Origin: Bacteroidota bacterium
Lineage (GTDB): Bacteria; Bacteroidota; Bacteroidia; B-17B0; Aurantibacillaceae
DNA length: 64,000 bases
Direction of reading: 5' to 3'
Assembly (NCBI GenBank): GCA_013298715.1
Contig: JAAFIQ010000001.1
Location: forward strand, 186,001-250,000
Shown: piece after piece, positions 3,001-57,089 of the stretch
Layout of the letters: every line of letters begins with the position of its first letter
Position numbering within the stretch: position 1 is the first letter of the stretch
The notes under the pieces: generated by a model
Database searches by the model: none
The model's input: only the letters and a program-made list of their open reading frames with translations
What the model was told of the DNA's origin: nothing
Program-made: the position numbers and the translations under genes

Positions 3001-4009
3001 TAAAGATATTGATAAAGAATATAAAACAAGTTTAAAAACTGCTTTAGAAAAAAATGATGCTTACCAATTAGCCATGATGGCAAGTGCTGCAACAAATTTA
3101 AACGATACAAAAAATTATACAGACTTGATTAATAAACTAAAAAAATTACAAAAACAAGATGGATCGTTTACTGGCAGTAGCCATTCTATAACTTATTCTC
3201 AAGGCAATTCATTAACCATTGAAACTACTGCTTTATCTATTTTGGCTATGCTTAAAGGCTCTAATGACAATTTAATGCAGATTAGCAACGCTGTAAACTA
3301 TTTAGTAAAAAGTAGGAGTGGATATGGCGTATTTAGTAGCACACAAGGTACTATACTGGCATTAAAGGCTTTAACAGAGTTTGCAAAAGCAAGCAAAAAA
3401 ACGAGTGAAGATGGAACAATAGAAGTTTATTTGGATAACAAAAAAATTGCTGAGAAAAACTATAAAGCTGGTGATAAAGGCGCCATAGCATTATCTGGTT
3501 TAGAAAAAAACCTGATTGGTGAGGGCAAGCATAACATAAAAGTAAAATTTGTTGATGTAAAAACACCACTACCTTATTCTATTGCAATTGATTGGAATAC
3601 CACCTTACCAAACTCACAAAAAGAATGTGAAGTAGATTTAAAAACCAACATTCAACAAACGCAATTAAAAGTTGGAGAAACGGCTAGAATGAAATGTACT
3701 GTAACAAACAAAACAAATAAAGAAATTCCAAGTACTATGGTTCTTATTGGTATACCAGCTGGTTTAAGCGCACAGCCTTGGCAACTAAAAGAATTACAAG
3801 ATAAAAAAGTGTTTGATTATTATGAAATTAAAGACAATAAGTTAGCTCTATATTACAGAGGAATGGACGTAAGCGACATAAAAGAAATCAATTTAGATTT
3901 AAAAGCTGAAATTGTTGGAACATACGAAGCACCAGCATCTGTAGCTTACTTGTATTACACCAACGAATATAAAACGTGGTCTCCAAGTCAAAAAGTAACA
4001 ATTAAATAG
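2..4009 (+). CDS. alpha-2-macroglobulin family protein (5' partial)
   Basis: Probable cell-envelope protease trap of the bacterial alpha-2-macroglobulin (A2M) family. The frame is open to the left edge, so the ATG at 8 is probably internal and the N-terminus with its signal is missing. Numbering from that Met: macroglobulin-like beta domains to about residue 400, a carboxypeptidase-regulatory-like domain about 420-505, a low-complexity Lys/Ala linker, the A2M domain from about 645 (FRNTVYWNP), then the alpha-alpha toroid with GCFEQTSM, Cys at about 862. This fits the CxEQ thioester motif (GCGEQ in animals). The C-terminal half looks like a receptor-binding region. The TAG stop is formed partly by the first bases of an inserted repeat (4008-4269). 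Family assignment is firm; the protease target is unknown. Confidence 0.9.
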   Translation, partial: TYMKNFSSDGNDVQFEKEIQVQNVLLPNLKMKLDFDKKSFSANEEVVAKLCLQTNENTPLVNHQLKYVVSINGNKIVEKNDITDEEGIKFIKFNLPKKLKSTDGLLNIMIQFNGTTESVSRSIPISLNNIKLDFFAEGGELLSQFNNNLAFRATNEFGKPADVTGTIYSASGDSITSFSSFHNGMGSFTFIPKNNTNYYAKITSPLIEDVKYNLPSALNRGYNLLVSSTENNLKVKINTTEEENLSVITQIRGAIVNTATLSTKNGINELTIPTTTMPIGVAQITVFDAKGIARAERLSFVNKHKQLQISIETDKEKYLPREKVKLNIQVKDDKGLPIPGNISLAVVNDQLLSMADDKQANIVSQLLLQQEIKDKIIEPNFYFDNKEAKANKALDYLLLTSGWRKFSWEKIIAAERIQMNYLAEQTIFAGKVLDAYTAKPITSAKITISNTEQLTSDINGSFYMNNLDLTDAKNIQVKADGYYAYNTPIYNYNQEYIVYMYPTTYKQYNNSSMNATSKSVPMSAGGFAENKRAEIANEDLEAIADKDFAVVDLVKADARAKMPSPKKEMAKPGASEKIVAVNDKKKIDKNDKEGNVFKAANLEEVEIQHVGAKSKFVANNRSKNSQTYYRAKTFAAPVYKENETPEYRSDFRNTVYWNPSIDLGYNGKASVEFYLSDDITSFRAIAEGGNNFGDIGRGEKLFYTQLPFNMFVKVPTTIVGEDEISIPVTLKNNTTKPLGGALLISGGNQLFATSITQSIQTIMPGVAKTILLNYKAKNCVTKDTLSISFKCCGLSDGIVQPITINSKGYPQNLSFASQEKEMNYTFDVNHIVNGSLKIQFTAHPNVVSDLMTGVEGILREPSGCFEQTSMTAYPNAMVLDYLKATESKDDKALAYAGQLLDRGYKRLTTFEANTKGYEWFGASPAHQGLTALGIMEFTDMKKAGGKVDTKMIERTADWLIAQKDGNGGFLRNTRAYHDFGSISNEILNSYIVYALAEAGFKDIDKEYKTSLKTALEKNDAYQLAMMASAATNLNDTKNYTDLINKLKKLQKQDGSFTGSSHSITYSQGNSLTIETTALSILAMLKGSNDNLMQISNAVNYLVKSRSGYGVFSSTQGTILALKALTEFAKASKKTSEDGTIEVYLDNKKIAEKNYKAGDKGAIALSGLEKNLIGEGKHNIKVKFVDVKTPLPYSIAIDWNTTLPNSQKECEVDLKTNIQQTQLKVGETARMKCTVTNKTNKEIPSTMVLIGIPAGLSAQPWQLKELQDKKVFDYYEIKDNKLALYYRGMDVSDIKEINLDLKAEIVGTYEAPASVAYLYYTNEYKTWSPSQKVTIK

Positions 4010-4269
4010 GGTTCACTCAAAATGTATAAAAATTAACTGAATCGACCTGCCTACGGCGGGCACGGGCAGCGAAGTGAAGATGTATAGAAATACTTCGAGC
4101 TGAGCTAACGACGAGTCAGTTAATTTTTATCAAGCCAAAAACGCAAATAAAACTCTATTTTTCTCTGTAAGGATTTTCTCAAAATAGTTCAAAAAACTTT
4201 GCACATAAAAATGGTTTTAACCCTTACATCTCTTATCAGTTGGCATATTTGCGTTTTTGAGTAAACCCT
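4008..4269 (+). repeat. MITE-like inverted-repeat element, copy 1
   Basis: A 262-bp non-coding element. The ends form an inverted repeat: AGGGTTCACTCAAAA (4008-4022) against TTTTGAGTAAACCCT (4255-4269), one mismatch. It is flanked by 4-bp direct repeats AAAT (4004-4007 and 4270-4273), as expected for a target-site duplication. Inside are two long-range perfect stems: 4026-4040 with 4116-4130 (15 bp), and 4136-4149 with 4246-4259 (14 bp, overlapping the right terminal repeat by 5 bases). A near-identical copy in the opposite orientation lies at 39712-39954. This copy carries an extra GC-rich stretch of about 19-20 nt near 4043-4063. No ORF or transposase is inside. I infer a non-autonomous mobile element. 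Confidence 0.8.
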
Positions 4270-4286
4270 AAATAATTACAACAACA

Positions 4287-22387: not shown

Positions 22388-22418
22388 TTTTTTTATATCA
22401 ACTAAAAGATTACCTTTG
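22388..22418 (+). promoter_or_regulatory. promoter of the cobalamin riboswitch operon
   Basis: TACCTTTG (22411-22418) matches the TAnnTTTG -7 box exactly. A TTTT element lies 19 bases upstream (22388-22391). Transcription would start near 22423-22425, just before the riboswitch aptamer. Confidence 0.55.
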
Positions 22419-22423
22419 GCAAC

Positions 22424-22640
22424 GTTCTGGTTTTTAGGTAAAACTAAAATTAAAAGGGAATAAGGTGCAAATCCTTAGCTGTCGCGCAACTGTAAGTTTT
22501 ATGCGATTTTTACAAGTAGTTAAATAAAAACTACAAGCCATTGTTTGTTATCTGTAACAAATGAGAAGGTGTAAAAATTTAAAACAAGTCAGGAGACCTG
22601 CCAAAACAAAACACGTGAACCTTCGCGAAAAAAGGTGGTG
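22424..22640 (+). promoter_or_regulatory. cobalamin (B12) riboswitch with SD-sequestering hairpin
   Basis: The aptamer spans about 22424-22603. Conserved blocks are AAAAGGGAATAAGGTGCAA (22453-22471), GCTGTCGCGCAACTGTAAG (22478-22496) and the 3' B12-box strand GTCAGGAGACCTGCC (22588-22602). The expression platform follows: ACCTT (22619-22623) can pair with AAGGT (22632-22636), and this strand contains the Shine-Dalgarno-like AAGG, 9 bases before the ATG at 22645. Control is therefore probably translational, reducing expression when B12 is bound. The platform loop CGCG (22624-22627) is complementary to CGCG at 22483-22486 in the aptamer, which would fit the kissing-loop contact of this riboswitch class. 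Confidence 0.9.
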
Positions 22641-38684: not shown

Positions 38685-39701
38685 ATGCAAAAGCAAGCAA
38701 TTCTTTTAGTAAACCTTGGCACCCCCGATGCGCCAACGCCCGTTAAAGTTGGAAAATACCTAACTCAATTTTTAAATGACAAACGAGTGATTGATGTAAA
38801 TCCTATTCTGCGATTTATTTTAGTAAACTTAATTATTGTGCCGTTTAGAAGTTTTAAAAGCGCTAAATTGTACTCTCACATCTGGACAAAAGAAGGCTCA
38901 CCTCTTTTACTAAATAGTATTGATTTAAAAAATAAAGTACAGGAAGCTGTTGGAAGCAACGTAATTGTTGAGTTAGGTATGCGTTACCAAAGTCCGAGTA
39001 TAAAATCTGCCTTAGAAAAAATAAGAGAGCAACGTCCTGAAAAAATTCATATAATTCCGGTTTACCCACAGTATGCAAGTTCCAGCACCGGAAGCAGTTT
39101 AGAGGAAGTTTTAAATCAACTAAAGCGATGGGAAGTTATACCAAGTTTAAACATTATAAGCAAGTTTTACGATCACCCAAGTTTTTTAAAAGCCCTGCTG
39201 GTTGAAGGAAATAAACACAACATTGCTGATTATGACCACGTTGTGTTTAGCTACCACGGCTTGCCAGAGAGGCAAATACGTAAAGGCTCAAAACACTACG
39301 GCGCTAATACTTGCCAAATGGGGGACTGTTGCAATAGTATAACAAAAAATAATCAGTATTGTTATCGCGCAAATAGTTTTGAAACCACACGCCAATTAGT
39401 AAGAGAACTTAATATCCCTGAAGGAAAGCATACCACCGCATTTCAAAGTAGATTAGATAACAAATGGCTGAAACCCTTTAGTGATAAAGTAATTGAGGAC
39501 TTAGCAAAAAAAGGAGCAAAAAATGTTTTGGTTTTTTCTCCAGCGTTTGTATCTGATTGTTTAGAGACCATTCATGAAATTGGCACTGAATACGATGAAA
39601 TTTTTAAAGAACATGGCGGCCAAAAAATTACCTTGGTGGATAGTTTAAACAGTAATGCTGTTTGGGTGAATGCCGTAAAAGAAATTACTTTAGGGCACTA
39701 G
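38685..39701 (+). CDS. hemH: ferrochelatase
   Basis: Inserts ferrous iron into protoporphyrin IX, the last step of protoheme synthesis. The N-terminus LLVNLGTPDAPTP is diagnostic; the metal-binding His is in FSYHGLPERQ (about residue 189), and the C-terminal Glu lies in SDCLETIHEIG (about 288-298). At 338 aa it is full length. A CQMGDCC segment (about 210-216) contributes several Cys, which could hold an iron-sulfur cluster as in some bacterial ferrochelatases; this is a suggestion only. The stop is 10 bases before repeat copy 2. Confidence 0.94.
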   Translation: MQKQAILLVNLGTPDAPTPVKVGKYLTQFLNDKRVIDVNPILRFILVNLIIVPFRSFKSAKLYSHIWTKEGSPLLLNSIDLKNKVQEAVGSNVIVELGMRYQSPSIKSALEKIREQRPEKIHIIPVYPQYASSSTGSSLEEVLNQLKRWEVIPSLNIISKFYDHPSFLKALLVEGNKHNIADYDHVVFSYHGLPERQIRKGSKHYGANTCQMGDCCNSITKNNQYCYRANSFETTRQLVRELNIPEGKHTTAFQSRLDNKWLKPFSDKVIEDLAKKGAKNVLVFSPAFVSDCLETIHEIGTEYDEIFKEHGGQKITLVDSLNSNAVWVNAVKEITLGH

Positions 39702-39711
39702 TTAAATATTT

Positions 39712-39954
39712 AGGGTTCACTCAAAAACGCAAATATGCCAATTGATAGGAGATGTAAGGGTTAAATCCATTTTTATATGCAAAGTTTTTTAACCTCTTTT
39801 GAGAAAATCCTTATAGATAAAAATAGAGTTTTCTTTGCGTTTTTGGCTTGATAAAAATTAACTGACTCGTCGTTAGCTCAGCTCGAAGTATTTATATACA
39901 TCTTCACTTCGCTGCCTTGATTCAGTTAATTTTTATACATTTTAAGTGAACCCT
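39712..39954 (-). repeat. MITE-like inverted-repeat element, copy 2
   Basis: A 243-bp second copy of the element at 4008-4269, in opposite orientation. The ends are AGGGTTCACTCAAAA (39712-39726) and TTTTAAGTGAACCCT (39940-39954). It is flanked by ATTT direct repeats (39708-39711 and 39955-39958), the complement of the AAAT at copy 1, so in element orientation both copies have AAAT on each side. By eye about a dozen substitutions separate the copies, plus the GC-rich stretch missing here. It inserted in the narrow gap between convergent hemH and the 39922 gene and supplies the latter's last codons. Confidence 0.8.
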
Positions 39955-40365
39955 ATTTATCTCGCTTCTTATTTCCTTTATCCTTCCAATTCTTTTAAGA
40001 GAATAACTTATGCTATTCTCGTTTGCGTACTCGTATAATGTAAGGCTTTTTTCTAAAAAAGTTATTCTATTTTCCATAGCTGCCTCTATACCCAAAACAA
40101 ATAAAATTTCTGCTATCTGCTCTAAATTTTCATTGGTGAATTTTTTTTCTGTTTGAAGAAAATTAATTAAAATTTTATTCTCTAGTTGTAAAATTTCATT
40201 TATGTTTAGGTTAAGTTCATCTTTTAGCGCTTGACTGGTTATCTCAAAACATCCATTAATTTCGCCTTCTTTATTAAGTTTTAAAAGGTTACTAAGAATC
40301 TTACCAAGAATCCGTCCTAACATATCAATTTGTTTTAAAAAATAGTCGTCTTGTCTCATGGTCAT
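39922..40365 (-). CDS. small helical hypothetical protein with element-encoded C-terminus
   Basis: A 147-residue, mostly alpha-helical protein (DYFLKQIDMLGRILGKILSN at the start) resembling small DUF6483-type proteins, an uncertain match. The last 11 residues (RVHLKCIKIN plus the junction Asn) are encoded by the inserted repeat. Removing the element and one ATTT in silico gives the ending SEIN-Ile-stop (TAA at 39702-39704), immediately beside the hemH stop. The gene is thus intact apart from a replaced tail. A 9-bp gap separates it from the upstream barrel-like gene, so the two are probably co-transcribed. Confidence 0.65.
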   Translation of the reverse strand: MTMRQDDYFLKQIDMLGRILGKILSNLLKLNKEGEINGCFEITSQALKDELNLNINEILQLENKILINFLQTEKKFTNENLEQIAEILFVLGIEAAMENRITFLEKSLTLYEYANENSISYSLKRIGRIKEIRSEINRVHLKCIKIN

Positions 40366-56587: not shown

Positions 56588-57089
56588 AGCAGATTTAATG
56601 AAGTGCTAAATTAACAAAAAACGAATTTAAGTTCATGATGTAGATTTTATTTTTTACAAACTAATTAGGATTCAATCAAAATGTATAACTAGGGTTCACT
56701 CAAAATGTATAAAAATTAACTTATCTGACTTTTGGCAAATGCTTCATGTAAAAAGAAGGTCTTTTTCAAATTAACTTATTTATATAGTTTCTCATTTAGT
56801 TAAACTTATAATCTATTTAATAACCAAAATATGAATTTTACATACATAACAATTCAACCTTTATAACAAACATAAACCAGATTGTGTCATTTAATTTATT
56901 TAACGGCCTACCCCTTCGAGATTCAATATTTACAATCGTTTTAGGCGCATGCTGTGAAAAACGAACTCTTTTTGATAAATAAATAATATAAGTTACCCAA
57001 CCTAATCTTAAAATGAAGTGTATAGGTGAAACAAGAAAGGTAAAAGTTTAAAACCTAAAATTTAAACTAATATAAAAAAACAAAACAAA
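56588..57089. other. 502-bp intergenic region with repeat remnant
   Basis: Divergent promoter region between pepT (minus) and the PKD cargo gene (plus). It holds the decayed repeat end at 56667-56721, a second TTAACTTAT tract near 56768, and A-rich leader sequence before 57090. No convincing ORF or promoter box was found. Confidence 0.6.
56667..56721 (+). repeat. remnant of the inverted-repeat element (left end, twice)
   Basis: AGGGTTCACTCAAAATGTAT (56691-56710) followed by AAAAATTAACT matches the first 31 bases of the element at 4008. Just upstream, 56667-56690 is an imperfect 24-bp tandem copy of the same end (AGGATTCAATCAAAATGTAT). The rest of the element is missing and no AAAT flank is present. 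Confidence 0.7.

Follow-up and report, generated by a model that had tools for sequence, protein, structure and literature searches.

The window, a stretch of 64,000 nucleotides from the genome of a Bacteroidota bacterium (GenBank assembly GCA_013298715.1, contig JAAFIQ010000001.1, positions 186,001 to 250,000), contains a complete 243 bp element, copy 2, between hemH and the gene for a 147-aa protein (Table 1). On the plus strand this element reads AGGGTTCACTCAAAA...TTTTAAGTGAACCCT (39712-39954), and its ends are terminal inverted repeats (TIR) of 15 bp, AGGGTTCACTcAAAA. The neighbouring hemH is intact and stops at TAG in 39699-39701, whereas the convergent minus-strand reading frame crosses into the element at 39954 and closes at the TGA ending at 39922.

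Table 1. Positions of the features discussed, numbered from the first letter of the window.
Feature	Positions	Strand	Remarks
hemH (ferrochelatase), convergent neighbour	38685..39701	+	Intact; Pfam PF00762, E = 6.6e-92
Ancestral TAA stop of the 147-aa gene (inferred)	39702..39704	-	Now separated by the element; in silico empty site and homologue ends
Target site duplication ATTT, left of copy 2	39708..39711		Read directly
MITE copy 2	39712..39954	+	243 bp, complete, both TIR; 44 matching places in its own genome
Left TIR of copy 2	39712..39726	+	AGGGTTCACTCAAAA
Right-hand internal hairpin of copy 2	39850..39938	+	GATAAAAATTAACTGA... / ...TCAGTTAATTTTTAT; best-conserved interior part
Right TIR of copy 2	39940..39954	-	AGGGTTCACTTAAAA on the minus strand
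Target site duplication ATTT, right of copy 2	39955..39958		Read directly
Gene for the 147-aa protein, altered end	39922..40365	-	No Pfam match
C-terminal tail RVHLKCIKIN and TGA stop, element-encoded	39922..39954	-	Last 33 nt of the ORF, inside the element
Target site duplication AAAT, left of copy 1	4004..4007
Junction stop codon T/AG of the gene upstream of copy 1	4007..4009	+	TAA in the joined empty site
MITE copy 1	4008..4269	-	262 bp, includes the second 19-bp module
Target site duplication AAAT, right of copy 1	4270..4273
Two tandem right-end element fragments (remnants)	56662..56721	-

An altered C-terminus next to hemH

The flanks of copy 2 were joined in silico with a single ATTT kept. 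The minus-strand protein then ended in ...EIRSEINI, and its TAA (39704-39702) abutted the hemH stop. The earlier note had placed copy 2 between hemH and the minus-strand gene ending at 39922 with ATTT on both sides, which is seen directly in the sequence, and its prediction that excision leaves ...SEINI and a TAA beside the hemH stop was reproduced by the joining.

Searches of relatives gave three homologues of the 147-aa protein, all from the same genus (G052, G014 and G009) and divergent, with 27-33% identity. When aligned, they ended at -1 to +3 aa of the reconstructed SEINI end, and the tail RVHLKCIKIN was present in none of the three. Since all three homologues end at about the same point without it, the tail is element-derived. 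The replacement of the last Ile by ten element-encoded residues ending at an element TGA, as the note had proposed, is thereby borne out by the sequence, the empty-site join and the homologue ends, and the alignment suggested as a check gave no counterexample carrying the tail. As far as sequence comparison can tell, the element appears to have removed the original C-terminus of the 147-aa protein and supplied its own tail, a reading that is well supported. No natural empty site was found at the hemH locus, and because the homologues are divergent and located in different gene neighbourhoods, the joined empty site is a reconstruction.

Copies and forms of the element

Copy 1 is 88% identical to copy 2. 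Its insertion changed the stop codon of the upstream gene from TAA to TAG only, leaving the protein tail unaltered. The tandem fragments at 56662-56721 are probably a deletion remnant.

The source genome (G000; 4.01 Mb, 46 contigs) contained 44 matching places, a figure that includes fragments and pieces as well as full copies. The end motif occurred 90 times in this genome, compared to 3 times in the reversed control. The near-complete copies that could be delimited (n = 42) were spread over many contigs, and nearly all carried AGGGTTCACTcAAAA at both ends. Copy 2 is thus not a chance structure, given these 42 paired-end copies, the additional fragments and the exactly equal 4-bp flanks of 28 copies. 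Most copies were 242-244, 261-262 or 279-288 bp long, and deletion forms of 152/153 bp and 222/223 bp were also present. The length steps result from two precise 19-bp quasi-palindromic modules, each of which is absent, single or double. These modules, CCTGCTTGCCGCAGGCAGG and CGTGCCCGCCGTAGGCAGG, were exactly present or absent in otherwise alike copies of several subfamilies (L016-L018 versus L005-L007 versus L001-L004). Independent mobility of the modules as palindromes was rejected, for all the matches listed for G000 coincided with copies of the element, and each further genome of the genus had 0-2. As the core word is rare in those genomes, hairpin deletion, or else recombination among copies, is the likelier origin of the pattern.

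The element is a non-autonomous MITE: it is short (below approximately 600 bp), multi-copy and dispersed, has TIR and a 4-bp target duplication and lacks a transposase gene. The palindrome-associated elements of the IS200/IS605 type have neither TIR nor target duplication, and membership in that group is ruled out by the presence of both.

Relatives of the element were detected in three genomes of the same genus, G043 (the MAG 'Bacteroidetes bacterium isolate bin55', JAAFIL010000005.1), G052 and G044. The same TIR with TANNT targets were located at many sites in G050, of the same genus, and in G231, of another family. As far as searched, the family is limited within the searched genomes to a few genomes of one Bacteroidota genus, and the same ends recur in G231. 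An earlier description of these ends was not found in the literature, which is weak evidence as subscription papers were outside the search. The family is new; the kind of element and the donation of tails are already known from other MITEs.

Target sites

Both copies in the window are flanked by the same word, AAAT or its complement, and a target preference had been suggested on that basis together with a genome-wide count of the flanking 4-mers. This count gave duplicated ANNT words and not random ones, with exactly equal 4-bp flanks in 28 of 42 copies against a mean of 7 (maximum 14) when the partner flanks were shuffled. The flank consensus of all 42 copies was the palindrome Y-T-[A-N-N-T]-A-R with the central ANNT duplicated; T was found at position -5 in 39 copies, A at -4 in 41, A at +5 in 36 and Y at -6 in 34. 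As the target motif is palindromic, duplications of 2, 4 or 6 bp are indistinguishable on these data alone. The words duplicated exactly were AATT (n = 10), AAAT/ATTT (n = 9), AAGT/ACTT (n = 6) and AACT/AGTT (n = 3). The preference is therefore real and resides in the YTANNTAR palindrome, but AAAT, which is the most abundant TANNTA word in G000, is not the preferred word, being outnumbered by AATT even when counted with ATTT.

Gene context of the insertions

Gene calling relied on a simple ORF rule, the cut-off being 60 aa for the copies and 80 aa for the background, and the context figures given here are accordingly approximate. On empty sites, convergent genes bordered 24 of the 42 copies, tandem genes 12 and divergent genes 1, and the remaining 5 interrupted ORFs; in 464 kb of G000 the corresponding counts for these words were 53 convergent, 215 tandem, 87 divergent and 2181 in ORFs. 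Convergent positions were in large excess among the intergenic copies (24/37 versus 53/355 words, or 15%; p = 2e-10). Divergent positions were depleted (1/37 versus 87/355, p = 0.001), as were positions inside ORFs (5/42 versus 2181/2536, p = 5e-26).

This location might reflect function and not tolerance if the host keeps the element as a structured part of the 3′-UTR, ending transcription in both directions or stabilising the mRNAs of convergent genes. The strong convergent-gene bias agrees with such a role, and both strands folded far more strongly than shuffled sequences (z = -5.1 and -6.7). The nested inverted repeats of the element lead one to expect strong folding, however, as MITE folding derives from inverted repeats anyway. 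Between species, the right hairpin was more conserved (89%) than the left half (68%), and two stem pairs showed paired changes, A-U to G-C in one copy subfamily and C-G to U-A in G044. On sequence grounds this conservation and these changes are a hint, not proof, of constraint and would favour the 3′-UTR role; the covariation, however, involves few pairs and is explainable by subfamily inheritance or templated palindrome repair, and the left-arm stem is broken throughout one subfamily. A consensus scan detected no terminator or promoter at the locus, and no Rfam family matched the element above the gathering score, which further argues against the role. All considered, maintenance as a 3′-UTR part is conceivable but rather unlikely. 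The sole Rfam match in the window was a cobalamin riboswitch elsewhere, at 22411-22619 (RF00174, 99 bits).

Active targeting of gene 3′ ends or stop codons by the element is improbable. It would account for the flanks facing gene 3′ ends in 14 of 18 cases in G231 (p = 0.008) and 12 of 18 in G050 (p = 0.095), as well as for the overlap with a stop codon in 11 of the 37 intergenic copies. This overlap, however, equals the expectation for the TANNTA word alone (80/355, p = 0.31), five of the 42 insertions are inside ORFs and purifying selection predicts an equal bias. Targeting of stop codons was rejected since the overlap was not enriched. The claim that the element enters at gene 3′ ends consequently holds as a strong statistical bias and fails where stop codons as targets are concerned.

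The convergent share was 14/25 for copies with exact target site duplications and 10/12 for degraded copies, a comparison that only hints at selection behind the 3′-end bias. Purifying selection would be the economical explanation: we infer that copies are common between convergent genes chiefly because selection removes those that enter genes, promoters and operons.

Effects on host proteins

Protein effects were scored for reading frames of 60 codons or more that enter an element. In five genes, including the gene upstream of copy 1, the stop TAA was rebuilt as T/AG (the slash marks the junction) and the protein length was unchanged. A TAG at the junction shortened two ORFs (from 189 to 110 aa and from 167 to 113 aa), one gene lost 15 residues and gained VGFT, and another, at a degraded copy, lost 14 residues and gained 1. 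A gain of ten residues was seen among the scored frames in the 147-aa gene of the window only; L004 is a possible second instance, though its ORF is short (61 aa). That the element can donate protein tails is true, yet it is a rare event, with ten residues once and four residues once among the 42 copies.

As read from the sequence, the protein ends are set by stop codons in all three frames near both element ends. It appears unlikely that the element has evolved to cause low damage at stop codons, its insertion keeping TAA or rebuilding T/AG. This reading draws on the potential TAA/TAG in each half of YTANNTAR, on the element ends, which start with AG after the duplicated T, and on the five genes with a TAA-to-TAG change and unchanged protein length.

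Most probably the RVHLKCIKIN tail arose as a neutral side effect of the insertion, as genes entering the element close fast at the stops of either end. A selected function of the tail in the 147-aa protein is very improbable: the reading frame is still open with the tail in frame and the gene is real and has homologues, but these homologues do without the tail, its residues simply follow from translating the element end in that frame, and it occurs in no second genome that could show conservation.

Search for an autonomous parent

No full copy contained a transposase ORF, and no intact autonomous element with these ends was found in G000, G050 and G231. An apparent full element of 1.7 kb in G000 (L061, C1:86244-87939) was really a MITE split by an unrelated IS4/Tn5-like IS, which has the TIR CTGTGTGGACACA and a dead, frame-broken transposase. 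Likewise, an apparent full element of 1.76 kb in G231 (L243:3048-4803) was an IS110-family element (Pfam PF01548/PF02371) inside a 358-bp MITE with the same AGGGTTCACT ends. Ends identical to those of the family were numerous in both G050 and G231, and every complete element there was a MITE. The MITEs of G231 (358-392 bp) harbour a short ORF with EQTRCRV...SFSRAHRHSEKWRE.

In G050, 18 contig ends (C1, C2, C3, C5, C6, C8, C21 and others) break approximately 120-125 bp inside an element whose interior is absent from the assembly. This element has the ends AGGGTTCACTTAAAC / AGGGTTCACTCAATA and TANNT targets, and is a recently multiplied element of identical copies. L079 in G000 (C10:74491-74725) was rejected as a parent; its ends are similar, and its interior is different and belongs to other repeats. 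The end AGGGTTCACTTAAAC of L079 adjoins a contig end, and behind it come pieces of two or more other repeat families, found at approximately 30 dispersed places in G000.

A proposed course of the insertion and its known parallels

The course of events may be depicted as follows: A transposase supplied in trans would recognise the AGGGTTCACTcAAAA ends, pick a YTANNTAR palindrome and duplicate its central ANNT, the target rule itself being evident from the 42 copies. Copy 2 would have landed one codon upstream of the TAA stop of the small gene convergent on hemH, and the reading frame would then have extended ten codons into the element and halted at TGA, so that RVHLKCIKIN took the place of the last Ile. 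Taken as a whole, a MITE moved in trans and inserted before the stop, replacing Ile by this tail, is very probably the best explanation.

The locus shows cleanly how a mobile repeat rewrote the end of a protein, and it establishes a MITE family of Bacteroidota whose target rule is precise. Tails derived from an element in this way will go on being labelled native by annotation pipelines. Given the parent transposase, the convergent-end bias makes selection versus targeting testable.

The Rickettsia palindromic elements are small palindromic repeats that add amino acids to host proteins. They are in-frame inserts within genes, whereas the MITE family of the window changes gene ends only. In Erwinia, RU-1/ERIC is fused to the 3′ end of the ECA3499 amidase gene, where it removed the stop and provided a C-terminal tail (Delihas 2007, PMC2759123). 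There, as here, a MITE is located at a gene 3′ end, the normal stop is lost and the tail ends at an element stop. The two differ in that the Erwinia tail is approximately 35 aa long and the element there has open frames, whereas the present tail has 10 aa and all three frames are soon closed at either end of the element; sequence and host are also unrelated. MITEAba12 of Acinetobacter is a geneless, short TIR element with stops in all six frames, and in one copy 31 of its bases are fused to a gene and give a premature stop (PMC6382973). Unlike the MITE of the window it has a known parent IS (ISAba12), and it belongs to a different sequence family.

QMITE2 of Coxiella burnetii is located mainly in 3′ untranslated regions (PMC10969869), and RUP of pneumococcus has stops in all six frames (PMC10969869; PMC2229807). 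Together with the Correia elements, these resemble the present family in being non-autonomous, AT-rich, stem-loop-forming and intergenic (PMC10969869; PMC2229807). Their sequences are unrelated to it, and the present family differs by its YTANNTAR target with a 4-bp ANNT duplication.
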